A stretch of DNA of 64,000 nt from Brooklawnia cerclae (lineage in GTDB: Bacteria > Actinomycetota > Actinomycetes > Propionibacteriales > Propionibacteriaceae), in contig NZ_JAAMOZ010000001.1 of the NCBI RefSeq assembly GCF_011758645.1, positions 682,001 through 746,000 of the forward strand, given 5' to 3'. The translations under genes were made by a program, and so were the position numbers. Positions 28,389-48,386 of this stretch are shown in pieces; positions within the stretch are counted from its first letter, which is position 1; every line of letters starts with the position of its first letter. The notes below the pieces were generated by a model. It saw only the letters and a program-made list of their open reading frames with translations. It did no database searches and had not been told where the DNA came from.

Positions 28389-28427
28389 AGCGTGGTAGAG
28401 TTCTTCTCAACGACGAAGGAGGGCGCA

Positions 28428-29174
28428 GTGACTCAGCAGCTCGACGGCAACGACTGGCGCGACGACTTTCAACCAGCAGAACTCGCGGCGCTGCGTGAAC
28501 GCATCCCGGTCGCGATCCAGCGAAGCCAGGACCGCTCAGCCCGCGCACACGAAGCGTACGACGATCCCGACGGCGACCAAGACGTCTATGGCGCTGGCAT
28601 GGCTCGGGGTGTTCAGAAAGAACTCCGGTCGCTCTTGTCCGACCTCCCCTCTTACCGGGAGTCGAGGGCACCCTCTACGAGACGGATGCTCACTTTCGTT
28701 GGAAACGCCCTTATCTTCCCGCATCGCGTGGGGAAACAGATGCCGCGCAACTTCCGGCGCGTTCGACTCAGCTACCTGCCTGACTCGCGCCGTGAGCTCC
28801 TGTCGAAGACGAGCAATGTCAAATACTCAGACCCCGGGCTTTTCGACATCGATGACGTTCTCGAAACAGATCAGCCTGCATCGCTTGAGGACGCACTCAT
28901 CCACGTCGAGTTGGCTGTGCCTCGCACGACTCTCTTCGTCCCCTACTACAGCAGTACGCCACAGGGCGTGGGAACGATCTACTTCGCACCTGCGCGACTG
29001 AACGGTCGATACCTGGAGTTTGCCGACCCCGAGCGACTTGCCTACGAGCACAGTCCATCTTCGGTTGATGCTCCGCGCACCATGCTGAAGCCTGTGGCTG
29101 GGTTCAACAGTGGAGACCGCCCACGGACCTCGGTGAAGCTGCGCCAGCGGCCGTCCGAACAGGAAGGCAGCTGA
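28428..29174 (+). CDS. Uncharacterised protein, first gene of the XRE-ImmA/helicase cluster
   Basis: A 248-aa protein I do not recognise. GTG at 28428 follows GAAGGAGGGCG, better than the in-frame GTG at 28392. The N-terminus is acidic and helical (DFQPAELAALRERIPVAIQRSQDRS), with GMARGVQKELRSLLSDLPSY in the next helix. The middle is basic (FPHRVGKQMPRNFRRVRLSYLP), and the C-terminal half looks beta-rich (VELAVPRTTLFVPYYSS, GTIYFAPARLNGRYLEFADPERL). No signal peptide or membrane segment was found. It ends 2 bp before the XRE-ImmA gene, so the two are one unit. In analogous pairs the ImmA protease acts on or responds to its partner, but that role is only inferred from context. Confidence 0.75.
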   Translation: MTQQLDGNDWRDDFQPAELAALRERIPVAIQRSQDRSARAHEAYDDPDGDQDVYGAGMARGVQKELRSLLSDLPSYRESRAPSTRRMLTFVGNALIFPHRVGKQMPRNFRRVRLSYLPDSRRELLSKTSNVKYSDPGLFDIDDVLETDQPASLEDALIHVELAVPRTTLFVPYYSSTPQGVGTIYFAPARLNGRYLEFADPERLAYEHSPSSVDAPRTMLKPVAGFNSGDRPRTSVKLRQRPSEQEGS

Positions 29175-29176
29175 TC

Positions 29177-30334: not shown

Positions 30335-30366
30335 TGGGACGCAATCCCATCGAGAAAGGAAAAATC

Positions 30367-30606
30367 ATGACACAGCCCTCCAAGCGAGTAGTGCAGCGCC
30401 GAAGCGATGGCGACTGGGAGGTACGGAAGCCAGGAGCTGATCGTGCCAGCGCCATCACATCAACACAGGCCGAGGGCATCCAACGCGCCCGTACCATCCT
30501 CGGAAACGATGGGGGCGGCGAGTTGCAGGTCCGTTCACTCAAGGGGACGATCCGCGCGCAAGACACGGTTGCGCCAGGGAATGACCCAAGGGCTTCCAAG
30601 GGGTGA
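30367..30606 (+). CDS. DUF2188 domain protein
   Basis: A 79-aa protein built of one DUF2188 unit: KRVVQRRSDGDWEVRKPGADRASAITSTQAEGIQRARTIL, then a glycine-containing turn and LQVRSLKGTIRAQDTVAPGNDP. The fold is two short beta-strand pairs around a helix. These small proteins are scattered through accessory regions and have no known function. The ATG at 30367 follows GAGAAAGGAAAAATC. It lies between the protease/regulator and the large helicase and is probably co-transcribed with both. A role as an accessory or inhibitor of the helicase is only a guess. Confidence 0.7.
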   Translation: MTQPSKRVVQRRSDGDWEVRKPGADRASAITSTQAEGIQRARTILGNDGGGELQVRSLKGTIRAQDTVAPGNDPRASKG

Positions 30607-30666
30607 CCTCGGCGCACACGTTGGTAATGGCGTTCCTTGCATAGGCGAAGGCGAAAGAGGCTCGAC

Positions 30667-33600: not shown

Positions 33601-33855
33601 GAGCACCTTGACCGCCGCGCGAAGGCCTATACGAGAAGGACCGGTCTCAGTCCCTTCGAGATCGGCGACCGAGAAACCCTATTCCGAATCCGGCAGCAAG
33701 CTCCCCAACTCTTCCCTCGGATCTCGACCGTCATTGCCCAACCAGGACTCAGCATCAAGGCATCCACGAACGAACAGCTCAGGCTGATCGCAGGTGCGGC
33801 ATCCTACGTGCAGAGCGTCACGAAAGGCACTTTCGATGTCTACGCGTCTGCATAG
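30667..33855 (+). CDS. Large DEAD/DEAH helicase with C-terminal nuclease-like domain
   Basis: A 1062-aa SF2 helicase/translocase. Walker A MPTGTGKTE is at about 138-146, the DEAH box (LLVDEAHHA) at 249-252, motif III FTATPFRRDG follows, and motif VI is QLIGRLARTSSPLP. A middle region of about 450 residues has no obvious motif. The last 150 residues resemble a PD-(D/E)xK nuclease: IDDDRAGEAADL (D914-D916, E920) followed by LAHCKYSS (H940-x-K942) and DLYEVCGQA. The usual (D/E)xK is HxK, as in some related families. The ATG at 30667 follows AGAGG. The likely role is DNA translocation and cleavage of invading DNA. The 3' end overlaps the convergent small membrane protein by 16 bp. Confidence 0.85.
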   Translation: MGYRTEEVWAKQHVAGKNAVRQLLVPAYDNVEVLETELGHQVVSTPFGQWPVTRTAELPTEGPLAARLPARRSKNSRITWVGDREAVQASDVVRSFEGAIGFTAHDQPHSLRRPQIAALHSIVGYQSSGLSEPGIVVMPTGTGKTETMLAWLVAQRPERVLVVVPSTALRDQIATKFETLGILQLEGIVDRSALRPRVGRLEGRFASEAEARAFVEMANVVVATPSAIHANDPEVREAFFQGFTHLLVDEAHHAPARTWTEIIREFANRPTLLFTATPFRRDGLTLPGRVIFRFPLREAQKEGYFSTIDFSAVLDLDDDDEALAMAAISRLREDLAAGHEHLLLARVGSKARADEVHALYSHIAPELSPKVIYDSMSARRRAEALNAMRDRTSRVIVCVDMLGEGFDLPTLKVGAFHDTHRSLSPMVQLIGRLARTSSPLPIGRASVFVRQDPSQALSPMRFLLREDPDWDKVISDVTERATERANEVSEFEASFVDNPPDVPVGLLEPKMSAKAFATSTIDWNPLAARDVYGATVLDNLISVNADNSIAWFVIESIGDVRWGDIPSLRATDYTLVTMYLDRGRGMLYVHCSDTKHSLDKLVEAVLGHEPRPVNGYETFKVFSKLDRLIPTNIGLLDARDRDKRFSMHVGSDVETALTEAERTHKSNTHVAAKAFEEGERVTIAASLSGRFWSMRTAPNLAEWRTWCQQQGAKLSDGSIDVHSLFRSMIIPIDVRERPAFPVLAMEWPWELYLGNGTSSNLSYQDSSVLLTDAEFRIDDFGTSGPLGFSIVAPSWELAYEGHFGQQGLRYRPKGDDAEVVGSRDERTLFSTWLNNHKPTIFLSGDRMVTGDDRLLAPRTELAPYPRDQLRALDWVGEGVDITVESQGTERKTNSIQACMARYLSQHQTFDILIDDDRAGEAADLVGIRVDKGDLYVTLAHCKYSSKPTPGSRLSDLYEVCGQAMRGARWRDNGALPLLEHLDRRAKAYTRRTGLSPFEIGDRETLFRIRQQAPQLFPRISTVIAQPGLSIKASTNEQLRLIAGAASYVQSVTKGTFDVYASA

Positions 33856-34330: not shown

Positions 34331-37300
34331 TCAGAGACTCCTGCCCATCGACGGGGCGGCCCGGCGGGTCTCGTCTACGTCCTGGGCGTTCTTCGTGAGC
34401 GTGCGTGCGAGATCGAGCGCTGCCCGGGCGCGCGCTGCGTCGACCTTCTGGGCGACGGAATCAACCTGGGTGTCGAGTGCCGTGTCTGCGGTGACTTGGT
34501 ATCGGTCCCGGTAGGCGGCAACAACTCGGGCGGAACGTCGCCAGGTAGACAGCTTCCGCACCTCGGCGGGTTGCGGCCCCAGCTCTGCGGTCCACGGCGC
34601 TGCCTCATTGAGTGCGCGGTCGAGGACGGCGTCGGCTCGTGCTTCGATGAGGTCGCGGCGTTCGTTGAGCGACTGGCGCATGTCGTCGTTCATGGTGCCG
34701 GTGGCTTCCGGGACGAGACCGACAATCAGCCGTGGAGTCTTGCGAGTGCGTCCTGATCCGGCTGGGCGTGCGGTGGCCATGGCGACGCGGTGGTGGAGGA
34801 CAGCTGCGACGTCGTCAGCATCGTCGAGCCGTCGCGCACGCACCAGCTTCGGCAGAAGAACGTCGACGTTGTAGTGGTTGGCTTCCGCTCGGCGCAGTTC
34901 TGCGGTGAGTGGCCCGAAGGCGTCGGAGGCGAGTGCCTCGGCGGCCTGGGCATCCGTGAGGCCGGAGTGTTGGATGAGGGTGGCCCAGCGGTCATGTTGC
35001 GCGGCCGCGGCGATGGTCTCGTACTCGGCAGCCAGCTGAGCAATCGAGCCCCAGGTTTCTTGCTCGGCGACGGTCGTCTCGTGAGCCGAGAGTTCTGCGC
35101 CTGCGTGTTGCAGGACTCCGTAGAGGACGCTTCGGCCGGTGGCGGCCTGGTTGTCGCCGGGGTGTGGAACGTCGTGGGCGGTGTCGGGCTGGTCGACGGC
35201 GACGTAGGCGGCATTCGCGTCCCGTCCGCGGGTCATGGCTACGTACAGGTTCTCGCGAGTCATAGCCGAATCGACGAGGACGTGGGCGGTGTCGGTGGTG
35301 ATGCCTTGCGCCCGGTATGAGGTGACCGCGTACCCGAGTTCCACATGCTCGGCGACGTAGTCGGCCGGAACAATAGCGGTCGCACCCCACTTTGCTCCGG
35401 CGCGTTGGAGGGCGATGGAGCCATCGTCACGCACGTCCATCACGTTCCAGCGGTCGCCGTTGCGCACCCATCCCCGCCCGGCACGCAGGCGCCGATCATT
35501 GCGTCGGGTGATGACGACATCTCCAGTGGCGGCGCGAGTGCCATCATGGAGGTCAACTTCGTGAGGTCCCCGGACGACGCCGTCAAGGATCAAGTCGGTG
35601 CGGGCTCGGGTGTTCAAGGCGGTGACGGACTCGTTGGAGTCCGAAACCAAAACGGTGGCTTTGCCTGCCAGCAGATCTGCGCGCCAAGCGGTGTAGGCGG
35701 AGTCGATCATCTCCTCGGTCTCCCCATCGTGGATGCGGCCGTGAGCGTCGTAGGTGTCGATGATGTCGGTGCGTCCGTGCCGCAGGTCCAGAGAGGCGGT
35801 CTTCTCCCACGCATGGGTGAAACGGTGGACGTCGACAAGTTCGGGGGCATCTCCTCGGTCGTGGACCAGCAGTCCGAAGCCGCCGCCCGCATCAACGGAC
35901 TGGAGCTGGGCGTAGTCACCGACCAGCAGCACCTTCGCGCCTGCCTCGGCTGCGAGGCCGGTGATTCGCTCAAGGGAGAGCGTGCCTGCCAGTGACGCTT
36001 CGTCCACGATGACGAGTTGACCGGGTTCGAAGGTGGCGCCGGTGGTCTGGTGGGTCTGCCACCATTTCGCCGTGTTCTCCGTCGCGATCCCCAGGTCCTC
36101 CGCCAGAACCTGGGCGGCACCCGCGGACGGCGCCAGCCCGACCACCGAACCTGTGCCGTGTTCGCTTTCCCATGCTCGGCGCAGGGCGTTCATCGCGGTG
36201 GTCTTTCCAGCGCCTGCGGGGCCGACCAGCACGTCCAGGACGCGGCCGGAAACCGCGATCTGCGCGAGGGCCTCCGCCTGGTCCTCACCCAGCACGCGGC
36301 CGTCAGAGTCCGGACTCCGTGCGACGCGTTCCATTGTCCCCAGGCTGACCGTCGGCCCGGTCGTGTCGTGGCTGCGCTCAAGGAGCCGGTCCTCAGCGAC
36401 AAGGAGCTGGTGGGAGGAGTAGATGGTGGAGTTCTTGGGCCGGAAGACCGAGGTGGCGTCTGGGCGGCGAAACGCTGCCGGACTGGAGGCCAGCTCGAAC
36501 GGTGTCAATCGCAGCGAGACCGTCTCGGCGGCATCCACAACCAGGCCGACCAAGGCTTCGCGGTCCTGGGTGGTGGCGAATCGGTAGTCCATGGTCTGGC
36601 GGGCGGCTTCGGCGGTGAGGTTCCAGCGTCGCCACGTTGAGCGTTTCTCGCCGACCGCAGCGACGACGTTCTCACCGAGGTTGCGGACAATGTCGAGGGG
36701 AATGTCGTCGGCCCGTAGCAACAGCGGCTGCTCGTAGACTGCAACCCGGCGTGCCCACCCGGTTGCATCCTCACCCAGCACGGTGGCGGCTCGGTTGCGC
36801 CAGCTTGCGGTGAGGTCGGCCAGGGAGTGCACCGTCTTCTCGGGGCGTGTGGAGAGCGTTGCTTGGGCGCGCAGCTTCATGATCGTCGTCGCCGACGGGC
36901 GCCGCCCGCGCTCGGCCACGTACTTGTCGATCAGCCGATCGGTTGCCTCGTCGATGTGGCGTGCACGAGTGGAGAACTCCGCCACCAGCTCTTCGGAAAC
37001 CCCAACAATCGCCCATGCTGGGTTGCGGTCCCGGCTGCGGGCCCGTGCCTCCCACTCCACGCCGAGCATTCGCGTCAGGTGGTCGGCAAAGACGGCCTCG
37101 TGCAGCTCCGAAAGTGCCACAGCGGCCGCGTGCATCGGCCGTCCGTCCAGGGATCTCCACTTCCCGTCCAGGACGGTCTGGACCTTGTTACTGATCACCA
37201 CATGCGTGTGAAGGTGCGGATCACCAGCGCGCGAGTCATAGTGGTCGTAGGCGGTGGCAATGACACCGCGAACATCGACCTGGGCAACAGCACCGTCGCC

Positions 37301-37882
37301 AGCGTTTGCACCGGTGCGAGTGGCTGCAACCTCGCGCTCCATGTAGGCGATCATGTCCGCAACCGCGTCGTGATGTGCGTGGGCGATCAGGGATTGCGTG
37401 CCAGCATCCGCAACCGCCCAGAGCACGCTGGCGGATTTGGGGATCGAGAACGTGAAGTCGAATCCTGCAACCGCCCGTCGCGTCCCGCGTTCGGCTTCCT
37501 CGGCCTCGATTGTAGCCATTGCGCGGGCACGTGCTGCCGGATCAAGGTGCGAGTCAAGGGTTGCGGTCCGCTCTTCGATGCGTTGCGCGATGGTCTTGTA
37601 GACCGGATAGGCGCGGCCCAGGGGTGCACCCGTCACGGGGTCGCGGCCCATCCCTACCAGTAGCTGGAGCTGAGCTTCGCTGACCTCGTCGCTAGAGGCA
37701 ATCTGCCCAGTCCCGAGAGCTGGGAGCCCGCTGCCCATCCACCGGCCGGGAGGAGTGCCCTCGGCGTTGTAGTAGCGGGTCAGTGGCGTGGACAGTGACC
37801 GGTCCCCGTCCCCAGCGGCGACGGTCCGCAGGAGGTACTTGTAGCCGTCCCCGGCCGACATCACCCGCATCGACACCGTCAC
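34331..37882 (-). CDS. traA: MobF-family conjugative relaxase (TraA/TrwC-like)
   Basis: A 1183-aa relaxase that nicks the element at oriT and leads the transferred strand. The N-terminal TrwC domain (about 1-380) has a candidate catalytic tyrosine in MSAGDGYKYLL and the metal-binding triad DPHLHTH (H223, H225, H227). The helicase part has Walker A GPAGAGKTT near residue 560 and the UvrD-like VTSYRAQGITTDTAHVLVD near 865. The C-terminus contains a coiled-coil-like, Arg-rich region. GTG at 37882 has a strong GGAGGTG site 7 nt away, and that site lies wholly inside an 11-bp hairpin (37890-37915). oriT is probably nearby but was not identified. Confidence 0.93.
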   Translation of the reverse strand: MTVSMRVMSAGDGYKYLLRTVAAGDGDRSLSTPLTRYYNAEGTPPGRWMGSGLPALGTGQIASSDEVSEAQLQLLVGMGRDPVTGAPLGRAYPVYKTIAQRIEERTATLDSHLDPAARARAMATIEAEEAERGTRRAVAGFDFTFSIPKSASVLWAVADAGTQSLIAHAHHDAVADMIAYMEREVAATRTGANAGDGAVAQVDVRGVIATAYDHYDSRAGDPHLHTHVVISNKVQTVLDGKWRSLDGRPMHAAAVALSELHEAVFADHLTRMLGVEWEARARSRDRNPAWAIVGVSEELVAEFSTRARHIDEATDRLIDKYVAERGRRPSATTIMKLRAQATLSTRPEKTVHSLADLTASWRNRAATVLGEDATGWARRVAVYEQPLLLRADDIPLDIVRNLGENVVAAVGEKRSTWRRWNLTAEAARQTMDYRFATTQDREALVGLVVDAAETVSLRLTPFELASSPAAFRRPDATSVFRPKNSTIYSSHQLLVAEDRLLERSHDTTGPTVSLGTMERVARSPDSDGRVLGEDQAEALAQIAVSGRVLDVLVGPAGAGKTTAMNALRRAWESEHGTGSVVGLAPSAGAAQVLAEDLGIATENTAKWWQTHQTTGATFEPGQLVIVDEASLAGTLSLERITGLAAEAGAKVLLVGDYAQLQSVDAGGGFGLLVHDRGDAPELVDVHRFTHAWEKTASLDLRHGRTDIIDTYDAHGRIHDGETEEMIDSAYTAWRADLLAGKATVLVSDSNESVTALNTRARTDLILDGVVRGPHEVDLHDGTRAATGDVVITRRNDRRLRAGRGWVRNGDRWNVMDVRDDGSIALQRAGAKWGATAIVPADYVAEHVELGYAVTSYRAQGITTDTAHVLVDSAMTRENLYVAMTRGRDANAAYVAVDQPDTAHDVPHPGDNQAATGRSVLYGVLQHAGAELSAHETTVAEQETWGSIAQLAAEYETIAAAAQHDRWATLIQHSGLTDAQAAEALASDAFGPLTAELRRAEANHYNVDVLLPKLVRARRLDDADDVAAVLHHRVAMATARPAGSGRTRKTPRLIVGLVPEATGTMNDDMRQSLNERRDLIEARADAVLDRALNEAAPWTAELGPQPAEVRKLSTWRRSARVVAAYRDRYQVTADTALDTQVDSVAQKVDAARARAALDLARTLTKNAQDVDETRRAAPSMGRSL

Positions 37883-37977: not shown

Positions 37978-39246
37978 TCAGAGGAAAATATCTACGCTGG
38001 GATGCCGCGGTGCATAACGAACTCCGAGTCGATCGGCGGAGTGCGAGAGTACCTTGGAAGGGACCCGAATGTGTTTCAATATCAAGAGTGATAGAACTAT
38101 CCAGTTCGCGTCTCTCACGCCTCGTAACAATTGCGAATCATCCCAGATTTCATTTTGAGCCGCGTGGGCGATGGTGTTGCGCACACGAATGAGCGCCTTC
38201 GTCCATTCCGAGGTTGATATCCGGGCCTGTTGCCAGACATCAACAGGAACCGATTCCACTAGCTGTTCTACCTTGGATCTGAATGTGGTCCTCGACAATT
38301 CACTCTTCAGTATGCCACGCATGTCTTTTTGTGCGGCGTTTAGATCCTTCAGCGAGTTAAGCGCATCGAGGAAAGGCTGCCGTTCGTCAGCATCCAGTCG
38401 CGGAGGCGCGTCTTGTTTCAACTTCGTTGCGAGGGATTCAATAGCTGCAGAACTCAGGATTACGTCGGCGTCAACATAGCCTGGCTGATATCGAAGACCG
38501 CTGATTATCTGTAGAATCGGCTTCCAGTCCGTATACGAGTTCCACCATTCATCGATCGTTTCTTGTAGCCAATCGCCAGAAAATCGCAATGATTGTTCGA
38601 CCGAGGGTCGCTCCTTGCGGCGGAAAGGAGAATACTTGTCGCGGCCAAATATCTGAACACGAACGTCGGAAGCGTCAGTAGCGATCATTGAGAGCTGACC
38701 ACAAGGGAGGTCCGTTGCGAGTACTAGCAATGCTTGGAATACCGCGAGTTGCGACTCGAACTCTTCAAGAGGTACGGCGGTCGATGAGGTCAATTCGATA
38801 GTATTGCCATCCGTAGGAAAAACTGCCGACATCTCAGACGCACCCTCTACGGCCGGAAAAGTAATCCGCTGCGACAAACTGCGGGCAGGTCCATCTTCCG
38901 GCCGGTACGCGCATACTGCAGATAGGTGTTCGAATACGGCTTGAACCTTCACATATGAACCGTCAGGAGTTTCGGAGCCAACTCTGAGCTCATCGATGCG
39001 CAGACCTAGATCGCCTTCTATAGCTGCCACCTCACCTCGAATGAACGTTGGAGTATTCTCCAAACGCGTCGTAAGACTCCGCGTGCCCGACTTTCCGCTG
39101 GTATATGAAAAGCTGCCAGGAGACTTCAGATACCATCTACCGGCACGCTCTACGATATCGGCTGAGCCGTCGCGTGCTCCCTCACACGCGGATCGAAATT
39201 CGATCGATTTAGATGGCCAACTGTAGCTCTCTGAGAAGAACGTCAA
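37978..39246 (-). CDS. HEPN-domain protein, ApeA-like (predicted abortive-infection RNase)
   Basis: A 422-aa protein, last gene of the defence operon. The C-terminal region carries the HEPN ribonuclease motif R-N-x3-H in RVRNTIAHAA (R356, N357, H361), preceded by helices ADVILSSAAIESLATKL and TEWTKALIRV-like segments as in ApeA/Apea-HEPN proteins. The N-terminal 200 residues are beta-rich, compatible with an ApeA N-terminal domain. HEPN proteins of this kind cut RNA and arrest infected cells. The probable TTG start at 39246 is 10 bp after the Res stop. The gene is clearly AT-richer than its neighbours, a sign of separate acquisition. Its ApeA relation is by motif and layout, not alignment. 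Confidence 0.68.
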   Translation of the reverse strand: MTFFSESYSWPSKSIEFRSACEGARDGSADIVERAGRWYLKSPGSFSYTSGKSGTRSLTTRLENTPTFIRGEVAAIEGDLGLRIDELRVGSETPDGSYVKVQAVFEHLSAVCAYRPEDGPARSLSQRITFPAVEGASEMSAVFPTDGNTIELTSSTAVPLEEFESQLAVFQALLVLATDLPCGQLSMIATDASDVRVQIFGRDKYSPFRRKERPSVEQSLRFSGDWLQETIDEWWNSYTDWKPILQIISGLRYQPGYVDADVILSSAAIESLATKLKQDAPPRLDADERQPFLDALNSLKDLNAAQKDMRGILKSELSRTTFRSKVEQLVESVPVDVWQQARISTSEWTKALIRVRNTIAHAAQNEIWDDSQLLRGVRDANWIVLSLLILKHIRVPSKVLSHSADRLGVRYAPRHPSVDIFL

Positions 39247-39256
39247 CTTCTTGCCT

Positions 39257-42200
39257 TTACGCGGTAACTAGCCGCATCAGCTCGGTGTAGTCGGTGACGA
39301 CGTCGTAGGTGACGTCGCCGTCATTCTTCTTGTTGAGGGAGGCGAAGAACTTGCGGGCGCACTCGATCTTCGCGTCCTCGACGCCCTTCAGCTGGAGAGT
39401 TGAGAGTGAGCCCTTGGTCTCCGCGACGAAGTAGACGTGCTTGACGCTGCCTTCCTTGAACGCGATCGCCCAGTCCGGGTTGTAGTCCCCGACCGGAGTC
39501 GGGATGAAGAACCCGCGCGGGAGCTTCGCGTACACGGCGACCTCGGTGCTGGTGTCAAGGTCGTTGACGAAAGCACGCTCGATCTTCGAGTCGGTCACAA
39601 CGTAGTCGTAGATGTGCTTCGTGAGCTTGGTACCGGCGTGGGTGAGGTCTTGCTTGGTCTGGTTCTCCGTGAAGATAGCAGAGTCGAAGGTCTCGTCCAG
39701 AGCGTCGTATGCGAGGTGCTCCACGATGACGGTCGCCTTCTGCTCGTTGATCAACCGCGCAGCTTCGGTGATGAACTGTTCCGGGTTCAGCCTGAACTTC
39801 CCGAACGTATCCGGCCGGATGCCCTTGAGGATCGCTGCGACCGTACGGCGGGTCAGCTTCGTCTTCTCGGCGATCTCACCCAACAGGTCGTACTTCACGT
39901 GCGACCCAGCCGTCACCGCCTCGGTCACGGTCTCCGTGGTAGACGCCGCGAACCCCGAGCCCTTCGACAGATCGTCCGCCTCTAGCTCATCACGCTGCTT
40001 GCCCGACTGGATGACGTACTGCATGGACGCAACGTTGAGGTGCTTGTCCATGTGGTCAACAGCCTTGCGGATCAGCTCGTCTGAGTCGAACTCGACCTGA
40101 TAGACCGCCTTATGGTTGATCCGGCCCCACAGGCTCTGGAACTCCTTGCGCGCGAAGTTGGCCTCGTTGAGGGGAACCTTCTTCGGCTTACGGTCATCGG
40201 TGGGCTTCGGTACGTCGATGTACAGCGAGTCGACCAGCGGCCAGATGAAGTCCACCACCGGCAACAAGACCTCAGATGTCGGGACAGCAAGCGTCCCTTC
40301 AGCCTTGGCCTCCTTGTAGGTGGGCGTGATGTGGCCGTCATCGTCGATGTAGTCGTTGCGTGCCAGGTAGTTGTAGAGGGACCGGGCCAGTTGCTCCTCC
40401 ACGATCGACTCGCCCGCGGTGGTCTGGATGGTCTTGCCCTTGAAGAAGTTGACGCTCGCCTTGCGCGGACGGGCAGCCAAGGACTCCGAGATCTCCTTCT
40501 GGAGCCCGTCAACGAAGTCTGTGTAGGACTCGTCGGTGACGACGGTCAGCTCGTTGATGTCGTGGACCCGAGCACCAACCGTTGCTTCATCCATGCGCTC
40601 GCCCCGCTGGTCAACAGCCAGGCGGAGGCCACGGCCGATCTCCTGACGTCGGGAGACGGTGTTGTCGCTCTTCTTCAGCATGCCCATGACGAATACGTTG
40701 GGGTTGTCCCAACCCTCGCGCAGCGCGGAGTGGGAGAAGATGAACCGCACGGGCTCGTCAAAGGAGAGCAGCCGTTCCTTGTCCTTGAGGATCAGGTCGT
40801 AGGCGTCGATGTCGGTGGACTGGCCCTTGTCATCACCCCGGCCGGAGACCTTGCCGTCGACCTGGTGCTTGGACTTCTTGTCGATGGAGAAGTAGCCCTG
40901 ATGGATCTCTCGGATCTCGTCGCGGCGCAGGTAGGCCTGGTAGGCGGCAGTCGCCTGGTCGAGGGCCAGCTCGCTGAGCACCTCGTCGCGGATCAGCGTG
41001 TACTCCTCCTCGAACATCCGCGCGTACTCACCGAGCGTGTCTTCTCGGGAGTAGTCACGGTACTTCGCCACCTCGTCGATGAAGAACAAGGACAGCACTT
41101 TGATGCCCTGGCTGAAGAGTTCCCGTTCCTTGTCCAGGTGGGCGCGGATGACCTCCCGGATCTGGATGCGTCGCTTGGTGTCCTCCGTGACGTCGCGATC
41201 GGCGAGCTGACCGGCGAACACGATGTCCCCATTGCTCAGCTCGATCACATCACGGTTCGCATCGATGTCGACAACGACGAGGGACTTGCCGTCGGGACGA
41301 TAGGCCTCCAGCCCATTGGAAAGATCGTGGAGATTCGTCCCCTTCTCCACCCGCTTGACCTGACGTTTGATACCAGTCTTGGTCTGGACCTCGATCTCGA
41401 CGCGAGCGCGCGGTAGTGCACCCTTCGCGATCTCTACTGCCTCCAGGTAGAGGTAGGCAGTAGACCCTGCTAGACCTTTCACGGTAATGCCACGAACGGC
41501 AATCTGCTTGACCAGCTTCTGGTTGTAAGCATCCAGTGCATCGAGCCGGTGTACTTTGGTATGCTCCACCTTGTGGGTTGCGGAGTACCGCAGCATCATC
41601 AGCCCGTTGAAGTTCGCCAATGCCTTGAGAGACTTCTCCGCGCCGATCTTCTGTGGCTCATCGATGATCACGATCGGCCGGTTCGCCGCGATCACATCGA
41701 TCGGCTTTCGTGACTGGAAGTCGTCCAGCACGTCGTAGATTCGCCGGTTGTCTTTGCCCGTCGCATTGAAGGCCTGGATGTTAATGATCATCACCTGGAC
41801 GCCAGCATCCGAGCTGAACCGCTCCAACTCGTGTAGTTGAGACGAGTTGTAGACGAAAGATCGCGGCTTGGTCCCGTACATCTGCTGGAAGTGTTCAGCG
41901 GTGACGTCGAAGGACTTCTTCACACCCTCGCGGATCGCGATCGACGGCACGACGATGATGTACTTCGACCAGCCGTACCGCTTGTGAAGCTCCATGATCG
42001 TCTTGATGTAGACGTACGTCTTGCCGGTACCAGTCTCCATCTCAACATCCAGGTTTGGAGCGTGGGGCGCAGCTTTGCTGTCCTTCAGCGTGGAGGAGAA
42101 CGGCAAGTTCCGAGTCTGTTGGACCTTGTGGACGTTCGCCAACAGCTGGGTGTCGCTTAGGAGGATCTCGCTGTTACGTAGACCAGAGTCTGGACGTTCA

Positions 42201-42355
42201 TCTGCTTCAAAGAGCGCCGGATTCGTGACCGGCGTCACCTTTCCAGGATCGATCCGGTACGCGACCCCTTCACGCTTGGGCTGGCCTTCGAAGACATCAA
42301 CCACCGAATCCACGGCTTCTGTCTGATACTGCTGGACCTTGAACTGAAGCTTCAT
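39257..42355 (-). CDS. Type III-like restriction endonuclease subunit (Res)
   Basis: A 1032-aa restriction-helicase. Walker A is METGTGKTY (about 106-114), the helicase box IIDEPQKIG (DEPQ 232-235), then RYSATHK as motif III and SRRQEIGRGLRLAVDQ as motif VI. The C-terminal nuclease has NPDWAIAF (D961) and FVAETKGS (E979-x-K981), a PD-(D/E)xK active site. Res subunits use ATP to communicate between recognition sites and cut unmodified DNA. The ATG lies 5 bp after the Mod stop, as in standard mod-res operons. All catalytic residues expected of a functional enzyme are present. Confidence 0.92.
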   Translation of the reverse strand: MKLQFKVQQYQTEAVDSVVDVFEGQPKREGVAYRIDPGKVTPVTNPALFEADERPDSGLRNSEILLSDTQLLANVHKVQQTRNLPFSSTLKDSKAAPHAPNLDVEMETGTGKTYVYIKTIMELHKRYGWSKYIIVVPSIAIREGVKKSFDVTAEHFQQMYGTKPRSFVYNSSQLHELERFSSDAGVQVMIINIQAFNATGKDNRRIYDVLDDFQSRKPIDVIAANRPIVIIDEPQKIGAEKSLKALANFNGLMMLRYSATHKVEHTKVHRLDALDAYNQKLVKQIAVRGITVKGLAGSTAYLYLEAVEIAKGALPRARVEIEVQTKTGIKRQVKRVEKGTNLHDLSNGLEAYRPDGKSLVVVDIDANRDVIELSNGDIVFAGQLADRDVTEDTKRRIQIREVIRAHLDKERELFSQGIKVLSLFFIDEVAKYRDYSREDTLGEYARMFEEEYTLIRDEVLSELALDQATAAYQAYLRRDEIREIHQGYFSIDKKSKHQVDGKVSGRGDDKGQSTDIDAYDLILKDKERLLSFDEPVRFIFSHSALREGWDNPNVFVMGMLKKSDNTVSRRQEIGRGLRLAVDQRGERMDEATVGARVHDINELTVVTDESYTDFVDGLQKEISESLAARPRKASVNFFKGKTIQTTAGESIVEEQLARSLYNYLARNDYIDDDGHITPTYKEAKAEGTLAVPTSEVLLPVVDFIWPLVDSLYIDVPKPTDDRKPKKVPLNEANFARKEFQSLWGRINHKAVYQVEFDSDELIRKAVDHMDKHLNVASMQYVIQSGKQRDELEADDLSKGSGFAASTTETVTEAVTAGSHVKYDLLGEIAEKTKLTRRTVAAILKGIRPDTFGKFRLNPEQFITEAARLINEQKATVIVEHLAYDALDETFDSAIFTENQTKQDLTHAGTKLTKHIYDYVVTDSKIERAFVNDLDTSTEVAVYAKLPRGFFIPTPVGDYNPDWAIAFKEGSVKHVYFVAETKGSLSTLQLKGVEDAKIECARKFFASLNKKNDGDVTYDVVTDYTELMRLVTA

Positions 42356-42360
42356 CCTGA

Positions 42361-44244
42361 TCAGATCGCCTTCACTTCAGTCGAAGGGGAAACTTCACGG
42401 AAAATCTGCTCAGCGTTGATCCGAGCGGCGTCAGACTCGAACCCATCGTCACGGAAAACTGCGCGAAGAGGTTGCCGCCGCGCCATCTCGCGGATCGCCT
42501 CTGAAGTCAAATTGCGATCAAAACAGGCAAGGAGCATACCGTCCTCGACATTGAACAAAGTGTAGGTGGGGAAATCCTCTTGGACAATCGACATGGTGGG
42601 CTCTAGTCCCCAGTCCAACATCACCTGGAACAGCAGATCCAGTCCGCTCCGGTCATCCCTAATACTTGACACTAAGGTGTCAATGCTCAGCTGCTCCAAA
42701 GTGTCAGCAGATTGCAACACTGCATTTCGGTTCGAGTTATCCACCCTCAACACGCGGAATCCCGTATCCAAAGCCAATGATTTCTTGGTGGCTTCGCTTG
42801 ACGCTCTTGAGCCAGCGCGACGGATCCGTTCCTTCGAGATTTCTGCCACAGTGTGAGGGGCTCCGATTGAGTTCGTGAACTCAATACCAGTTCGGGCGAC
42901 GGATTCTGCCGGGCCTGAGACGCTATTCAATTGGACATCGAGATCCTCGGGAATCTGCATTGCTATAAATGAGCGTGGCACGCCGTCGGCGACTGACTGA
43001 TCAAAGAGACCATGTACTGTAGATGCAGATCCGGAGAATAGGTCAATGACAATATCGCCTGGAGAGGAAGCGGTTGCTTGTATGAGTTGGCGCATTAGAC
43101 GCACTGGCTTCGGGTAAGAAAACGTCCCTGCCATCTCTAGGGACTCAAGATCAGCGGTACCCTCTTCCGAAAGAACCTTAATTATCGAGTACAGTTTTGA
43201 CTTTGCCTCATTGAGCGGTGTGCGCTTAGCGACGATGTGCCCTCCCTTCCAGGGCATAAGGAATAGCGTCCCAGCCTCCAGCTGAGAGTCAATCTCGTCC
43301 TTCTTAGCCTGGCCTTTATAGGTAACAATCTCTTCGTATAGACAACGACGTTCCGTGCCTGTCTCGTACTTGCCGAAGGTCTTTCTTAGGACGTCATCAT
43401 CGATGAGGTATTGCACACCGTCGATGATTTCGGTTCGTCCCTGCACAACTTTGTCTCGACGGAGCGGCTCGACAGAATCGATATTCCGAGCGATTGTAAG
43501 AATGTAGTCATGACCGCGAACAAGGTTCTTAGCATTTCCTCCACCTTTGGCTCGTTGATGGATCAGAGTTCCAATGAAGTTGCCTCTTCCGAACAACTCG
43601 TCAAGCAGCAGCCGGAGACCCGCAACTTCTCCATCGTCGATGCTGACCATTAGGACACCTTTGTCGCTGAGCAGCGAGCGTGCTAGCTTGAGTCGCGGAT
43701 ACATCATATCGAGCCAGTCGGAATGAAATCGCCCGTTAGACTCCGGGTTTGCATTGAGCAGTTCGCCGTTCTCCCTGGCTTGTCCTGAACGCAGTAGATA
43801 CGACTCTGCATCCTCCGCAAAGTCATCGTCGTAGATAAAATCGTTGCCAGTGTTGTATGGAGGGTCGATGTAGATGAGTTTGACCTTGCCGAGGTATGAC
43901 TCCTGGAGTAGCTTGAGCGCCTCCAAGTTGTCCCCCTCGATGAAGAGGTTCTTGGTCGTGTCGAAATCGACAGATTCCTCGCGGATCGGACGGAGCGACT
44001 TGGCGATCGGCGCGTTCGCTGCGAACGCTGCTGCGCGCTTGCCCGGCCAGTCGAGTCGGTACCGCTCTTGCGGTCCGTCGACGATGTGATCGGAGAGTTC
44101 CTGGCGGAGGAGGTCGAAGTCGACGGCCCGCTGCGGATTTCCGTCGGCATCGAGAGTCTCGGTGATGACGGTTGGGAACAGTTCGGCGAGCTTGTCGATG
44201 TTCGCCTCGGTCAGGTCGGGCGATGTCATGCGCAGTTTTTCCAT
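42361..44244 (-). CDS. Type III-like site-specific DNA adenine methyltransferase (Mod)
   Basis: A 627-aa beta-class N6-adenine methyltransferase. The catalytic motif IV DPPYNTG is at 127-133 and precedes the cofactor motif DLFSGSAS (401-408), the beta-class order. The target-recognition region lies between and after them. In this part the DNA is AT-richer than in the amino-terminal third (44244 to about 43900), which suggests a replaced recognition domain. The ATG (MEKLRM) is 5 bp downstream of the DUF4391 stop. It modifies host DNA at the site recognised by the Res partner just downstream and should be lethal to lose alone. The site itself cannot be read from sequence. Confidence 0.9.
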   Translation of the reverse strand: MEKLRMTSPDLTEANIDKLAELFPTVITETLDADGNPQRAVDFDLLRQELSDHIVDGPQERYRLDWPGKRAAAFAANAPIAKSLRPIREESVDFDTTKNLFIEGDNLEALKLLQESYLGKVKLIYIDPPYNTGNDFIYDDDFAEDAESYLLRSGQARENGELLNANPESNGRFHSDWLDMMYPRLKLARSLLSDKGVLMVSIDDGEVAGLRLLLDELFGRGNFIGTLIHQRAKGGGNAKNLVRGHDYILTIARNIDSVEPLRRDKVVQGRTEIIDGVQYLIDDDVLRKTFGKYETGTERRCLYEEIVTYKGQAKKDEIDSQLEAGTLFLMPWKGGHIVAKRTPLNEAKSKLYSIIKVLSEEGTADLESLEMAGTFSYPKPVRLMRQLIQATASSPGDIVIDLFSGSASTVHGLFDQSVADGVPRSFIAMQIPEDLDVQLNSVSGPAESVARTGIEFTNSIGAPHTVAEISKERIRRAGSRASSEATKKSLALDTGFRVLRVDNSNRNAVLQSADTLEQLSIDTLVSSIRDDRSGLDLLFQVMLDWGLEPTMSIVQEDFPTYTLFNVEDGMLLACFDRNLTSEAIREMARRQPLRAVFRDDGFESDAARINAEQIFREVSPSTEVKAI

Positions 44245-44249
44245 GGGTC

Positions 44250-44921
44250 TTACCTTTGCTGTTCCAGCTGTGCTTGTTTGGTCTTGAGGGTGCGGCGCAG
44301 TTCAACCTTGCGGTTGAACTGCTTCTCGGTGCGGAGCTTGCGCTCCAGTGTTTTGATCTCGCGTTCGAGCTTGCCGACGGTCTTCAGTCTGTCAGCGACC
44401 TCCGACATTCCTTCGCCTGGACGAACCTCGACATCGGCGAGCGGTTCTAGAAGGGCTGCGTAGAGGGCAGGCAAGGTAATGGCGGTCGGTAGCGGTTGGC
44501 GCTCGGTGTCAGCGGGCTGCCAGCCGGTGCTGAAGTACTGGCTGATCTTCGGGGCACCCGCACCGAGTTGCTTGTGGGCTGCGACCATGCGAGTCGCGCG
44601 TACGCCGGCGTCGTCGCGGTTGACCTCGAAGATGATCGGGCGCGGGATGGACTTGTCGATGGCGCCGAGCACCTGCTCGGAGACGTCGGTCCCTTTGGTA
44701 TCGACCTGGAAGATAGCGATGTCGGGGACCTCAGCAGTACTCTCCAGGTTGATGCTCGCTTGAGCCAAGTCATAGGCCCAGATCACGCGATCGACCTCGG
44801 AGATAAACTTCTCCCGCAAGGCACTGTTCACGCTGGCGTGCTCGTAGAACTTCTCCTTGGGCACCCGTCGCCCGAAGTGGGCGGCGCTCGGCCACTGGTA
44901 CAGCAGGTCAGTCACCGGCAC
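44250..44921 (-). CDS. DUF4391 protein
   Basis: A 223-aa DUF4391 protein. The N-terminus has LLYQWPSAAHFGRRVPKEKFYEHASV, then SEVDRVIWAYDLAQASINL, VPDIAIFQVDTKG and RPIIFEVNRDDAGVRATRMVAAHKQLG. The last 55 residues are a predicted coiled coil (RLKTVGKLEREIKTLERKLRTEKQFNRKVELRR in pieces). DUF4391 genes recur between SNF2-type helicases and adenine methyltransferases in defence operons, but no activity is known. GTG at 44921 follows GGAGGAGG; 44915 is an alternative. It overlaps the helicase stop and lies 5 bp before Mod. The coiled coil suggests a bridging role between the two enzymes (inference). Confidence 0.8.
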   Translation of the reverse strand: MPVTDLLYQWPSAAHFGRRVPKEKFYEHASVNSALREKFISEVDRVIWAYDLAQASINLESTAEVPDIAIFQVDTKGTDVSEQVLGAIDKSIPRPIIFEVNRDDAGVRATRMVAAHKQLGAGAPKISQYFSTGWQPADTERQPLPTAITLPALYAALLEPLADVEVRPGEGMSEVADRLKTVGKLEREIKTLERKLRTEKQFNRKVELRRTLKTKQAQLEQQR

Positions 44922-47900
44922 TCGCCTCCTCCGTGGAGTCGACGACGGCGATGAAGGCGGTGAGTTCGAAGTCATCGAGTCCGGCGATGGTCTGAGTGAG
45001 GGCGGTGGTGGGGCCGGGGGTGAACAGGCTGTCGATGTCGCGTTCCTCGGTGACGTTGATCATCGAGTGGATCGCATCCGTCAGCAGCTGCGAGTACGCG
45101 CTCATGTCGGCGCCGTCGCGGGTCGCCTCGTTGAACGCGCGAACCGCACTGGGGACGGGCTGGTCATAGGGGCGGCAGCCGCTGCGCAGGAGGTCGAGCA
45201 GGTGCTTGGCCTCGGTATGGTCGGCGATCACCTGGCCGTCCTCGTTGAGGTAGACGAGGTAGTGCGGGTGGAGACGGTTTCCACGGTTCATGTGCTCGTC
45301 GGCGTTGACGTTGCGCAACGCGAAGATCACGCCGGGCACCAGCCCCTTGGCGGGGTCGGCGGGGACGACGGCATGCAGGCCCTTCGGGACGGTGGCGAGG
45401 TCGCCGTACTGCTTGATGTAGCCGAGCAGGTCCATGCGGAAGTCGTTGAGTCCGAGGTCGGTGATGGAGACCCCGGTGCGGACGTCTTCCAACTCAATGA
45501 CTTCATCTTGGAGCTTGCGGAGCTGTTCCTTGCGGAATGCAGCGTCCGGGTCTTCCTGCGTGAGGACGTTGTCGTCGGCGGTGCCCGCGATGTCGGCGAT
45601 CACCATCCGGTTCTCGACGCGTTCCTTGAGGTTAATGTACTCGTCCAGTGAGATGTCGGGCCAGAAGTTCACCAACTGGATGACCTGGTTGGTGGACCCG
45701 ATGCGGTCGATACGTCCGAACCGTTGGATGATGCGTACCGGGTTCCAGTGGATGTCGTAGTTGATCAGGTAGTCGCAGTCCTGGAGGTTCTGGCCCTCGC
45801 TGATGACGTCGGTGCCGATCAACACGTCCAGCTCGCGGGTCTCTCCGGGCATGGTCAGCTCGCGCTGCTTGGAGCGCGGGGAGAACAGGGACATGATCTG
45901 CTGGAAGTCGTACCCCTTCCCCAGGGTGGTGTGGGCACGGTTGCCGCCGGTGATGACCGCCGTCTCCAACCCCGCGGTGGCAAGTGCTGGTGCGAGGTTC
46001 TTGTAGAGATAGTCGGTGGTGTCAGCGAAGGCGGAGAACACCAGGACCTTACGGTTGCCGGGGTTGATTGGATGCTGCTCTTTGGAGCGGATGATGTCTT
46101 TGAGCTTGCGGAGCTTCAAATCGTGGTCGGGGGTGACCTTGTTCATCTCGTCGAGGAGTTCACGCAGAGTCTCGCGATCGTTCCACAGGTCCCGTTGCCA
46201 GGACTCGATGTCGAGGTCGTCCAGGTCGATGCGGATCTTCTCTCCGAAGGAGAGGGCCTCAATGTTGGCGTCGTCCTCGTCGTCGATGTCGAAGTCTTGC
46301 CCCGCCATGTCCGGGACAAGATCGGCGAGGTTTCCAGCGTGGTTGCTGATCCGGGACAGCGTGTGCGTGACAGAGCCTTGGACCTTGCCCAGCGTCAGGC
46401 GGAACGCCTCAACCGAACTCTCCAGACGCTTGAGGAGGTTGACGGTCATGAGCTGCTTGAGTCCCTGCTCGCGGCCCGCCTGCCCCAGATTCGACCGGGC
46501 GCTGCCTGTGGTGACGTCGTAGAGGTCCTCGTACTTGCTGCGACGGGACGGGAACACGTAGGCCAGCGGGGTGTAGACGGCCAAGGTGAGGGCCTGGAGC
46601 TGTTCGAAGATGTCGTTGAAGCCCGGAACGTCCGGGAGGTCGGTGAGCGGTTCACGCACGGAGATGGGCGTGAGGCGTTCGGGGAAGGCGCCGATCTCGG
46701 TCGTGTCGTAGAAGGCCTGGATGTGCTTGCGCGACCGGGCGATGGTCACCGAGTCCAGAAGTTCGAAGAAGTCGAAGTCCAGCATCTTCAAGATCCGGTC
46801 CGTGGTGCGCTGCTCGGCGTCGAGCTTGGACCATTCGTTGAAGACCCGCTGGGCGTCGGAGAAGACCTTCTCCACGCTGGTGGAGATGTTCAGGTGCTTG
46901 GCGAGATTCTCCGACTCGCCCTCGTAGGCGAGCTGGAGCTGGTTTTTCAGGTCGTTGAACCGGTTGTTCACCGGGGTGGCCGACAGCATGAGAACCTTGG
47001 TCTTCACGCCCTCCTTAATGACCTGGCGCATGAGGCGCTGGTAGCGCGACTCCTTCTCCTCCGCGTAGTCGGCATTGCGGAAGTTGTGAGACTCGTCAAT
47101 CACCACCAGGTCGTAGTTGCCCCAGTTGATGCGGGCCAGATCCAGGCCAAGGGACTCGCCCTTTGTTCGCGATAGGTCGGTGTGGGCGAGGACGTCGTAG
47201 GCAAAGCGGTCCTCGCGGAAGAGGTTGGTGGTGTAGTTGGAGTTGTAGTTCGTCCAGTTCTCTGCCAGCTTCTTGGGGCACAGGACCAGCACGGACTTGT
47301 TGCGTAGCTCGTAGTACTTGATGACGGCCAGCGCGGTGAAGGTCTTACCGAGACCGACGGAGTCGGCGAGGATACAGCCGTTGTAGGTTTCCAGTTTGTT
47401 GATGATGCCGGTGGCGGCGTCATGCTGGAAGTTGTACAGGCTCTTCCAGACCTTGGTCTCTTGGTAGCCGGTGCGGTCGTTGGGGAGGACGTCGTCGTTG
47501 ATGTCGTCGAGGAAGTCAGCGAACAGGTTGTAGAGGATGAGGAAGTAGATGCGCTCTGGGGAGTTCTCCGCGTACACCGTGGCGATGTGGTCGCAGACCG
47601 CCTGTGTGACGTCGTCGAGCTGCTCAGGGTTGTTCCAGATCTGGTCGAACAAGGCAAGGAACGATTGGGTTTCAGCCGCGCCCTCGAATTTGGTCACGAC
47701 GTTGGAGACGGCCGGGCCCTTCTCATAACCCAGGTCAGTGGTCGTGAATCCTTGGATCGGAAAGTAGGCGGCACGGTCATCTACCGCTGCCAACGGCTGC
47801 ATGGGGCTGCCCGTGGCGTTGGAACGGAAGGTGACCTTGCTGCGCACCCAGTCCGCGCACTCCCGCGCGATGGCCTTCTGGGTGAGCTTGTTGCGCAGCC

Positions 47901-48180
47901 GGATCTCGAACTCTGACCCAGCGATCGCCGACTCGGCATGCCCGGCAGGGATGAAGAACTGACGGCGCTCTTTGCGGATCTTGTCGGTCACATCCTCGGC
48001 TACGAACGATGGGGACGTGAAGATGAACTCCAGCTCGTCGACCCGCTCCAGTTCCTTCTTCAGTGCCTCGAAAGCGAAGATGGAGAACGTGGAGGCAGCG
48101 ATCCTGACCTTCGACCCGCTGGCCAGAACCGTCTTCAGGTCATCGCCCAGACGGTCGTTGACGTTGTCGATGATGCGCAC
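44908..48180 (-). CDS. SNF2-family helicase with PLD-like N-terminal region
   Basis: A 1090-aa SF2/SNF2 ATPase. The first 200 residues (KVRIAASTFSIFAFEALKKELERVDELEFIFTSPSF pattern) resemble the phospholipase-D-like N-terminal region found in such helicases, but no complete HKD motif was seen. Walker A is LADSVGLGKTF (271-281), the DESH box IDESHNFRN (362-365), motif III LSATPVNN. The second RecA lobe has DVLIGTDVISEGQNLQDCD and QRFGRIDRIGS. The GTG start is 5 bp after the HTH gene stop. It probably remodels or translocates on DNA to license the Mod/Res pair. Related helicases occur in DISARM-like systems, but the DUF1998 partner (DrmB) is absent here. Confidence 0.87.
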   Translation of the reverse strand: MRIIDNVNDRLGDDLKTVLASGSKVRIAASTFSIFAFEALKKELERVDELEFIFTSPSFVAEDVTDKIRKERRQFFIPAGHAESAIAGSEFEIRLRNKLTQKAIARECADWVRSKVTFRSNATGSPMQPLAAVDDRAAYFPIQGFTTTDLGYEKGPAVSNVVTKFEGAAETQSFLALFDQIWNNPEQLDDVTQAVCDHIATVYAENSPERIYFLILYNLFADFLDDINDDVLPNDRTGYQETKVWKSLYNFQHDAATGIINKLETYNGCILADSVGLGKTFTALAVIKYYELRNKSVLVLCPKKLAENWTNYNSNYTTNLFREDRFAYDVLAHTDLSRTKGESLGLDLARINWGNYDLVVIDESHNFRNADYAEEKESRYQRLMRQVIKEGVKTKVLMLSATPVNNRFNDLKNQLQLAYEGESENLAKHLNISTSVEKVFSDAQRVFNEWSKLDAEQRTTDRILKMLDFDFFELLDSVTIARSRKHIQAFYDTTEIGAFPERLTPISVREPLTDLPDVPGFNDIFEQLQALTLAVYTPLAYVFPSRRSKYEDLYDVTTGSARSNLGQAGREQGLKQLMTVNLLKRLESSVEAFRLTLGKVQGSVTHTLSRISNHAGNLADLVPDMAGQDFDIDDEDDANIEALSFGEKIRIDLDDLDIESWQRDLWNDRETLRELLDEMNKVTPDHDLKLRKLKDIIRSKEQHPINPGNRKVLVFSAFADTTDYLYKNLAPALATAGLETAVITGGNRAHTTLGKGYDFQQIMSLFSPRSKQRELTMPGETRELDVLIGTDVISEGQNLQDCDYLINYDIHWNPVRIIQRFGRIDRIGSTNQVIQLVNFWPDISLDEYINLKERVENRMVIADIAGTADDNVLTQEDPDAAFRKEQLRKLQDEVIELEDVRTGVSITDLGLNDFRMDLLGYIKQYGDLATVPKGLHAVVPADPAKGLVPGVIFALRNVNADEHMNRGNRLHPHYLVYLNEDGQVIADHTEAKHLLDLLRSGCRPYDQPVPSAVRAFNEATRDGADMSAYSQLLTDAIHSMINVTEERDIDSLFTPGPTTALTQTIAGLDDFELTAFIAVVDSTEEASAGD

Positions 48181-48185
48181 GCGAA

Positions 48186-48386
48186 TCAGCCACCCGCCTT
48201 GGTGGAGTCCGAGTCGGCGGCGCCGTCGTTGCGGACCCAGTCATCGACCTCGGTGGCTTGGAACTTCCAGAGGCGGCCTATCTTGTGGGCGGGCATGCCC
48301 TTGTCGGCGATCCACGCGTAGACGGTGTCTTTGGTGACGCCGAGGTGGGCCGCGATGTCGTCTGCTGACAGCCACGGCTCGGTCAC
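48186..48386 (-). CDS. Excisionase-type (MerR-like) helix-turn-helix protein
   Basis: A 66-aa DNA-binding protein of the excisionase/HTH_17 type: WLSADDIAAHLGVTKDTVYAWIADKGMPAHKIGRLWKF in pieces, then EVDDWVRNDG. GTG at 48386 has a good GGGAGG site. It is the first gene of the defence operon, 5 bp before the helicase gene, so it is better read as its autoregulator than as the element's excisionase. A near-perfect palindrome (48434-48451) just upstream is a candidate operator. Confidence 0.8.
   Translation of the reverse strand: MTEPWLSADDIAAHLGVTKDTVYAWIADKGMPAHKIGRLWKFQATEVDDWVRNDGAADSDSTKAGG

Follow-up and report, generated by a model that had tools for sequence, protein, structure and literature searches.

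We regard it as likely that a six-gene operon of Brooklawnia cerclae is a mobile, expanded type III restriction-modification (RM) operon, in which a conserved core is followed by an exchangeable slot for a co-transcribed second-line defense gene, occupied here by an ApeA-like HEPN gene. The operon lies at positions 37978-48386 of a 64,000-nucleotide stretch (contig NZ_JAAMOZ010000001.1, positions 682,001 to 746,000; hereafter the window), which belongs to a 3.8-Mb genome assembly. The standing core would comprise an SNF2 translocase with a non-catalytic phospholipase D (PLD)-like front, a DUF4391 protein, Mod and Res, and a small helix-turn-helix (HTH) gene leads the operon here. The initial annotation of this DNA had read six leftward, tightly packed genes as one layered system. 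Their open reading frames (ORFs), all on the minus strand, and their spacing (5 bp, an overlap, 5, 5 and 10 bp) were found as described. As for the system itself, the four-gene core proved to be conserved (103 of 117 distinct loci), whereas the HEPN gene is no fixed member (5 of 96 testable operons).

These loci, numbered here with the prefix L, were gathered by DUF4391 alone from plasmids, genomes of the window's family and class, Microbacteriaceae, GTDB genomes and IMG/VR (18). Among plasmids, 39 records had DUF4391 and five were loaded as loci. For the GTDB genomes, the best 80 of 400 DUF4391 loci were taken, nearest to the window first, and the sample leans to Actinomycetota. The resulting 138 loci, including the window, were reduced to 117 distinct ones after deduplication, with short duplicate and HEPN-only loci not counted. 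The slot behind Res was considered testable in 96 loci with a Res of at least 900 amino acids (aa) and at least 400 bp beyond it.

Cassette exchange among close relatives

The closest relative of the window operon, found in Brevibacterium senegalense (L042), carries a DUF3644 HEPN gene exactly in the place of the window's ApeA-like HEPN gene. The nucleotide sequences of the two loci are 91.9% identical from upstream of the HTH gene to Mod residue 142, show no match over the Mod middle, are 89.7% identical through the end of Res up to 39261, lose the match again over the HEPN gene, and resume at 89.0% identity from 37962 into the downstream relaxase gene. The stretch with no match to L042 (37962-39261, minus strand), bounded by matching flanks, consists of the HEPN gene (39246-37978) and a few flanking bases. 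At the protein level, identity reaches 97% for SNF2, 94% for Res and 51% for Mod, with no match between the HEPN proteins. A comparison with eight relatives places similar break points inside Mod: the nucleotide match to the window ends at 43813-43831 and resumes at 42436-42489 in seven of them and at 42356 in L050. The exchangeable middle part thus delimited by nucleotide match break points (about residues 143-585; 42489-43819, minus strand) is presumed to be the target recognition region. Both the Mod middle and the HEPN gene behave as cassettes. Their GC content at third codon positions (GC3) is 0.56 and 0.52, respectively, compared with 0.82-0.88 in Res and SNF2, and the slot gene also has a lower GC3 than its own SNF2 and Res in the four other intact ApeA carriers, L042 and L028.

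Two further loci come from the window's own genus. One (L028) carries a Swt1-type HEPN gene behind Res; the other (L030) has a DUF3644 gene of the L042 type, which is broken after approximately 170 codons by inserted DNA, while the adjoining SNF2 and Res are full length. By eye, the insert in L030 resembles a transposase gene. The HEPN motifs of the three types are RNTIAH (ApeA-like, window), RNHVEH (DUF3644, L042) and RNRWAH (HEPN_Swt1, L028). The core tree groups the window with L042 and L028 in one clade (support 99/99), and L030 joins them next (100/100). Relatives with other slot genes are 91-97% identical to the window in SNF2 and Res.

These replacements bear directly on the reading of the six genes as one obligate layered system, with the HEPN gene as a standing part. 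The tight operon and the presence of an ApeA-like HEPN gene behind Res in five other loci (L045, L049, L050, L056 and, in a broken form, L114) would agree with it, but the survey contradicts an obligate set, and the nearest relatives have other genes in the same place. Moreover, forcing the five ApeA carriers together on the core tree cost 1605.7 log-likelihood units (approximately unbiased test, p = 1.3e-7), so that they do not form one clade. We therefore consider an obligate six-gene system extremely improbable. On a small tree, ApeA needs four changes, compared with 4.7 on average after shuffling (148 of 500 shuffles gave as few), showing no clustering, though five rows carry little power; a large tree with 92 of the 96 loci was used for placement and not for change counts.

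Recombination within Res on one side and the relaxase gene on the other is the probable route of exchange. Relaxase homologues or pieces of them (66-91% identical in the aligned parts) are located downstream of the operon in L042, L045, L049, L056 and L114, and flanking homology could therefore drive the replacement of the gene between.

The slot behind Res and its HEPN genes

An ORF counted as a slot occupant if it lay on the same strand, was at least 180 aa long and started between -20 and +100 bases from the end of Res. By this rule the slot is filled in 46 of the 96 testable operons, and in 35 of them the occupant starts within 17 bases. Such tight spacing is commoner behind Res than it is behind the other genes of these loci, counting those of 200 aa or more (35/96 vs 101/467, p = 0.004). 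A control with random same-strand points (1022 of 1920 followed by an ORF, 511 of them tightly) is of little use, as it includes internal start codons. The 46 occupants were sorted into sequence clusters, and cluster representatives were scanned for families. HEPN types account for eight of them: ApeA-like HEPN (5), DUF3644 (2, one broken) and HEPN_Swt1 (1). The others include AAA_13 or PDC-S06 ATPases (7, with weak PrrC matches in L062 and L095), GmrSD (6), PDC-M36A (5), OLD (3), SIR2 (3) and PDC-S14 (3), as well as single TIR, Mrr, PDC-S68 and PDC-M68A genes. Seven occupants have no family assignment, including L026 and L076, which were not scanned.

Homologues of ApeA are present in six of the 117 loci and are located only behind Res: in the window, L045, L049, L050 and L056 among the testable operons, and as the frame-broken copy in L114. 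The carriers include genera other than the window's. In all six, the gene starts 9-11 bases past the end of Res, which argues for a shared transcript and probably coupled translation. DUF3644 was detected in two of the 117 loci, both times behind Res, and the Swt1-like gene in one locus behind Res, with three more matches elsewhere in two other loci. The co-occurrence envisaged in the initial annotation holds for the helicase and DUF4391 with Mod and Res, and for the HEPN gene just as one of several exchangeable occupants.

The most serious competing explanation, to which we assign a probability approaching one half, takes the HEPN gene for an abortive-infection gene that is independent of the operon and rides behind it, with the slot as a landing site for cargo and no functional link to Mod-Res. 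The low GC3, the lack of an occupant in 50 of the 96 operons and the great diversity of occupants would fit it, as would related genes elsewhere. Among 198 genomes of the window's family, the HEPN protein search gave hits in four, including its own, and the other three (L039-L041) are weak and away from Mod-Res. The HEPN profile matched two of 394 class genomes (one being the window's) and 14 of 398 Microbacteriaceae genomes. The best match in the latter (G939) lies inside the operon, whereas none of eight others whose surroundings were read (L179-L186; about 6 kb on each side), namely G943 (45% identity) and seven more, with five weaker matches left aside, stands beside Mod-Res. Because related HEPN genes lie away from Mod-Res, the family of the operon HEPNs also has free-standing members. 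In the HEPN tree, the operon copies fall on one side in 46% of bootstrap trees, which does not settle a single origin. What speaks against mere cargo is the constant spacing of 9-11 bases to Res in all six ApeA loci, and the presence of HEPN genes in each of the four loci in the window's core clade, drawn from three Pfam families and including the broken copy. No HEPN hit was obtained in plasmids (E ≤ 1e-5), in phages (E ≤ 1e-3) or in a close-relative search of IMG/VR.

Several observations weigh against an exchangeable second-line defense slot with an ApeA-like gene in it. No gene of at least 180 aa follows Res in 50 of the 96 testable operons, and a follower at -20 to +100 bp is not clearly commoner behind Res than behind the 467 other genes (46/96 vs 176/467, p = 0.067). 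This occupancy signal is weak, and the case therefore rests on the exchange. The slot also takes defense genes that do not encode ribonucleases (RNases), fitting plain cargo. As the match between the window and L045, L049, L056 and L114 runs through the junction of Res and HEPN, an old Res-ApeA pair whose HEPN gene was later replaced in L042, L030 and L028 is as possible as repeated gain; the tree does not separate gain of ApeA from its loss. The window HEPN protein itself scores 22.5 bits against Pfam HEPN_Apea, below the cut-off of 24.4, and the functions of all operon proteins are predicted ones.

The assignment of the HEPN protein (422 aa; 37978-39246, minus strand, TTG start), which occupies the exchangeable last slot, draws on further matches. 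HEPN_Apea was matched at E ≤ 0.01 by all six members of its close family, and the PADLOC Cas13-ApeA model scored 27 bits (E = 9e-7). The R-N-x3-H motif noticed initially is present as RNTIAH, with R356, N357 and H361 invariant in six rows, two of which are near-copies. The protein is thus probably an ApeA-like putative RNase. Its profile had no match at E ≤ 1 among solved structures.

Genes also occur between Mod and Res, a second position that is occupied in 13 of the 96 operons, in eight of them by members of one cluster. The scanned member (L043:14687-16432) encodes a Schlafen AlbA_2 and HATPase_c_4 protein. This gap is a second insertion position of the operon. The protein concerned, of about 550-580 aa, was seen in L043 and as nine homologues (L006, L026, L029, L044, L052, L058, L078, L192 and L201). 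A pair of genes lies between Mod and Res on an Aeromonas veronii plasmid (L210), another insertion at that position.

Conservation of the SNF2-DUF4391-Mod-Res core

SNF2, DUF4391, Mod and Res are all present, in this order, in 103 of the 117 distinct loci. Nine of the 14 exceptions are cut by a contig end inside the operon (L055, L071, L084, L085, L090, L118, L127, L128 and L138), two have broken frames (L114 and L119), one has no SNF2 gene beside DUF4391 (L038), and two have no Res despite sequence to spare (L068 and L081). The four-gene arrangement extends to Pseudomonadota, Chloroflexota and Bacillota. Among plasmids, one set of 38 records fills the first 38 places for SNF2 and accounts for all but one of the first 39 for Res and all but one of the 39 with DUF4391. 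On a Listeria plasmid, the 185-aa "hypothetical" protein encoded between the helicase and Mod is a diverged DUF4391 (hhalign 97.9%, E = 6e-13). An Enterococcus plasmid encodes an equally long "hypothetical" protein in the DUF4391 place, separated from the helicase by a transposase gene. These data show that SNF2-DUF4391-Mod-Res is one real conserved module.

It might be argued that SNF2 and DUF4391 form a separate two-gene defense system in front of a type III pair. Each gene is individually plausible as a defense gene, and Mod-Res do occur alone: no SNF2 or DUF4391 is annotated with the Mod-Res of a Staphylococcus hominis plasmid, nor with that of the A. veronii plasmid, the odd Res record (L210:5310-12060), which has the order Mod, AAA ATPase, DUF4276 and Res. 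Against this stand the gene order kept from Actinomycetota to Bacillota and the rarity of DUF4391 loci without Res (just L068 and L081), and we hold such a separate system to be quite unlikely. SNF2-DUF4391 accompanies Mod-Res, and Mod-Res can exist without it; since the pair is rarely found without Mod-Res, it may well work with it. The pair, conserved over several phyla beside type III Mod-Res, would be an accessory module for which PADLOC-DB 2.0.0 has no DUF4391 model. Of 5426 complete E. coli genomes, 10 also have a pair of this kind, about 98% identical to the copy on one plasmid, and given this occurrence it is accessible in a laboratory host.

Features of the core proteins

The motifs pointed out in the initial annotation, namely the Walker, DESH and DEPQ boxes of the two helicases, DPPYNTG of Mod and PD-(D/E)xK of Res, are present and invariant or nearly so in 109 (SNF2), 108 (Mod) and 96 (Res) homologue rows. 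The SNF2-family translocase (1090 aa; 44908-48180, minus strand) matches SNF2-rel with 47.9 bits and the PADLOC model C3a139 ("HKD+Snf2") with 409 bits over residues 3-1047, and has a GLGKT Walker A motif and the DESH box. Its PLD-like N-terminal region (about residues 1-240; 47461-48180, minus strand) lacks the catalytic HKD motif. An active PLD nuclease at the N-terminus was considered and ruled out, as none of the 109 homologues has HxKx4D in the first 260 residues. Because this holds while the motor motifs are kept, the front is probably a binding domain and not a nuclease.

The DUF4391 protein (223 aa; 44250 to about 44921, minus strand) scores 171.8 bits against PF14335. A start at or near the GTG at 44921, where the alignment of homologues begins, is favored over one at the ATG at 44975; if 44921 is used, the overlap with SNF2 is 14 bp. 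The AlphaFold2 model (mean predicted local distance difference test score 93) consists of an alpha/beta domain and a C-terminal helical hairpin. Neither the whole model nor the N-terminal domain matched the PDB in Foldseek at E ≤ 0.001, and a PD-(D/E)xK nuclease identity, suspected from the topology, had no Foldseek support at that threshold. For the N-terminal domain, VIA-align gave weak hits (best Z 4.9, with 109 residues aligned at a root mean square deviation of 3.9; Holliday-junction resolvase, Z 4.0), and the rows for the whole model cover the helical hairpin. No PADLOC-DB 2.0.0 family model matches the protein. We refer to DUF4391 as a putative adaptor.

Mod and Res are of the EcoP15I type (type III), as judged by homology. 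Mod, a beta-class DNA methyltransferase (627 aa; 42361-44244, minus strand), scores 90.1 bits against N6_N4_Mtase and 599 bits against PADLOC MTase_III (PDLC03634), and matches the EcoP15I Mod structure 4zcf_A over residues 55-257 (E = 4e-42). Its DPPYNTG motif is invariant in 108 rows, except for T132 (97%). Res (1032 aa; 39257-42355, minus strand) combines an SF2 motor of the ResIII family with a PD-(D/E)xK nuclease (PF19778 RE_endonuc, 114.9 bits, residues 913-1022). It scores 1096 bits against PADLOC REase_III (PDLC03647) and matches the EcoP15I Res structure 4zcf_C over residues 59-759 (E = 4e-67). Its TGTGKT and DEPQ boxes are invariant or nearly so, and PD...ETK is invariant, in the 96 rows. 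Type III enzymes cut in an ATP-dependent manner between two inversely oriented asymmetric sites and methylate one strand. More than one Mod ORF was seen in 18 of the 96 operons (L043, L044, L050, L076, L095, L112 and others), a few of which may be split frames, as in L075; the extra ORFs perhaps provide two recognition specificities on one Res.

The small HTH protein (66 aa; 48186-48386, minus strand; GTG start with GGGAGGA upstream) is excisionase/MAD1-like and likely an operon regulator. It scores 53.1 bits against HTH_17, 57 bits against TIGR01764 (excise) and 73.5 bits against NF047737 (MAD1; cut-off 80).

Proposed mode of action

The preferred reading, a type III core with an exchangeable defense slot, suggests the following division of labor. 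Mod would methylate the host DNA, with its exchangeable middle part setting the target sequence, and unmethylated phage DNA would be cut by Mod-Res, as EcoP15I homology indicates. SNF2 and DUF4391 most likely act on the same DNA as Mod-Res, for example by translocation along it that loads, clears or regulates the Mod-Res complex. The position directly behind Res would serve as the exchange slot for a co-transcribed second-line defense gene, and if restriction fails, the ApeA-like HEPN protein most likely cuts RNA and halts growth, by analogy with PrrC.

Such a fail-safe coupling to the core is plausible, and the idea of a HEPN protein as a suicide back-up is not original to this locus. The guard model has PrrC held by PrrI and released by anti-restriction. 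PMC3710099 extended it to HEPN genes found in RM operons, and PMC3506569 to RM systems of types I and III; such general guard and suicide proposals date from 2012-2013. A stricter version, in which the core proteins keep the HEPN RNase silent and release it upon a phage block of restriction, seems possible but somewhat doubtful to us. It could draw on the PrrC-PrrI precedent, on these general proposals and on the turnover between HEPN families within one core clade, but the same core would have to recognize each different fold in the slot.

We would give only a small chance to a more elaborate arrangement, a type III RM chassis with two exchange ports. In it, the Mod middle would determine what is attacked and the last slot how the cell stops, while SNF2-DUF4391 would read the state of Mod-Res and hold or fire the plugged-in effector (HEPN families, OLD, GmrSD, SIR2 or AAA_13 ATPase). 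Should the last slot prove to be an effector port, one could directly test the old idea of restriction systems guarding suicide genes of their own, as a near-identical core with three natural HEPN effectors allows comparison.

Genomic context of the operon

A TrwC/MobF relaxase gene (34331-37882, minus strand; PF08751, 302.9 bits) lies directly downstream of the operon, and genes for an AraC-type regulator, an ArdC-like protein and a prim-pol protein lie on its other side. Neither the relaxase gene nor the PLD-like region of the SNF2 protein figures in the initial annotation. Because of these neighbors, the operon is probably cargo of a mobile element. Two other regions of the window were also recorded. 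At 28392-33855 (plus strand), genes for a 260-aa protein with no family match, an XRE-ImmA/IrrE protein (PADLOC RmrA, 297 bits) and a 1072-aa ResIII/DEAD helicase likely constitute a second defense locus. A 285-aa protein encoded at 60813-61670 (minus strand) matches DUF4062 weakly (21.9 bits, below cut-off) and PADLOC PDC-S60 with 72.9 bits.

Comparison with known systems

The window operon shares with the type III RM system EcoP15I a homologous beta-class Mod and a Res composed of an SF2 motor and a PD-(D/E)xK nuclease, but adds the HTH, SNF2 and DUF4391 genes and a variable last gene. The gene set of DISARM includes DrmD, the PLD protein DrmC and a methyltransferase. The window operon likewise combines an SNF2 motor, a PLD fold and a methyltransferase; however, its SNF2 protein scores 166.4 bits against the DrmD model NF038317 (cut-off 610), and the PLD motif is missing. 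No match to the DUF1998 (DrmB) family was found among the six operon proteins, and in the PADLOC rows shown DrmA is matched by the SNF2 protein alone, with 78 bits, which falls far short of its C3a139 score. By family matches of the six proteins neither DISARM nor BREX fits, in agreement with the initial annotation. MADS has in common an HTH protein near MAD1, and no further MADS protein (NCBIfam) was found among the six.

In the open-licence literature searched, SNF2-DUF4391-Mod-Res was not found as a named module, DUF4391 turned up in one paper, as a table entry, and no earlier demonstration of a last-gene swap between HEPN families on a near-identical core was found. The excerpts available from PMC2292703, PMC8565338, PMC11090510, PMC9122601 and PMC10952713 contained nothing on the module. 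A type III restriction enzyme, Mod and an SNF2 helicase are described together on a Cronobacter integrative element in PMC12757443, where the passage concerned leaves the system unnamed.

What is already known, then, is the RM part, ApeA HEPN genes in RM operons and, as an old proposal, linked suicide genes in RM operons. PrrC-PrrI, a type Ic RM system with a linked HEPN anticodon nuclease (PMC3710099, PMC3506569), has a HEPN RNase gene linked to an RM operon as well, but the window operon is of type III and not type I, and its HEPN protein is ApeA-like and has no ABC ATPase. Closest in the type of HEPN are the RM operons of epsilonproteobacteria with embedded ApeA HEPN genes (Table 1 of PMC3710099, which includes a HEPN family overlapping DUF3644). 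The table row for these operons names neither SNF2 nor DUF4391, and the locus described here differs in lying in Actinomycetota and in having its exchange demonstrated.

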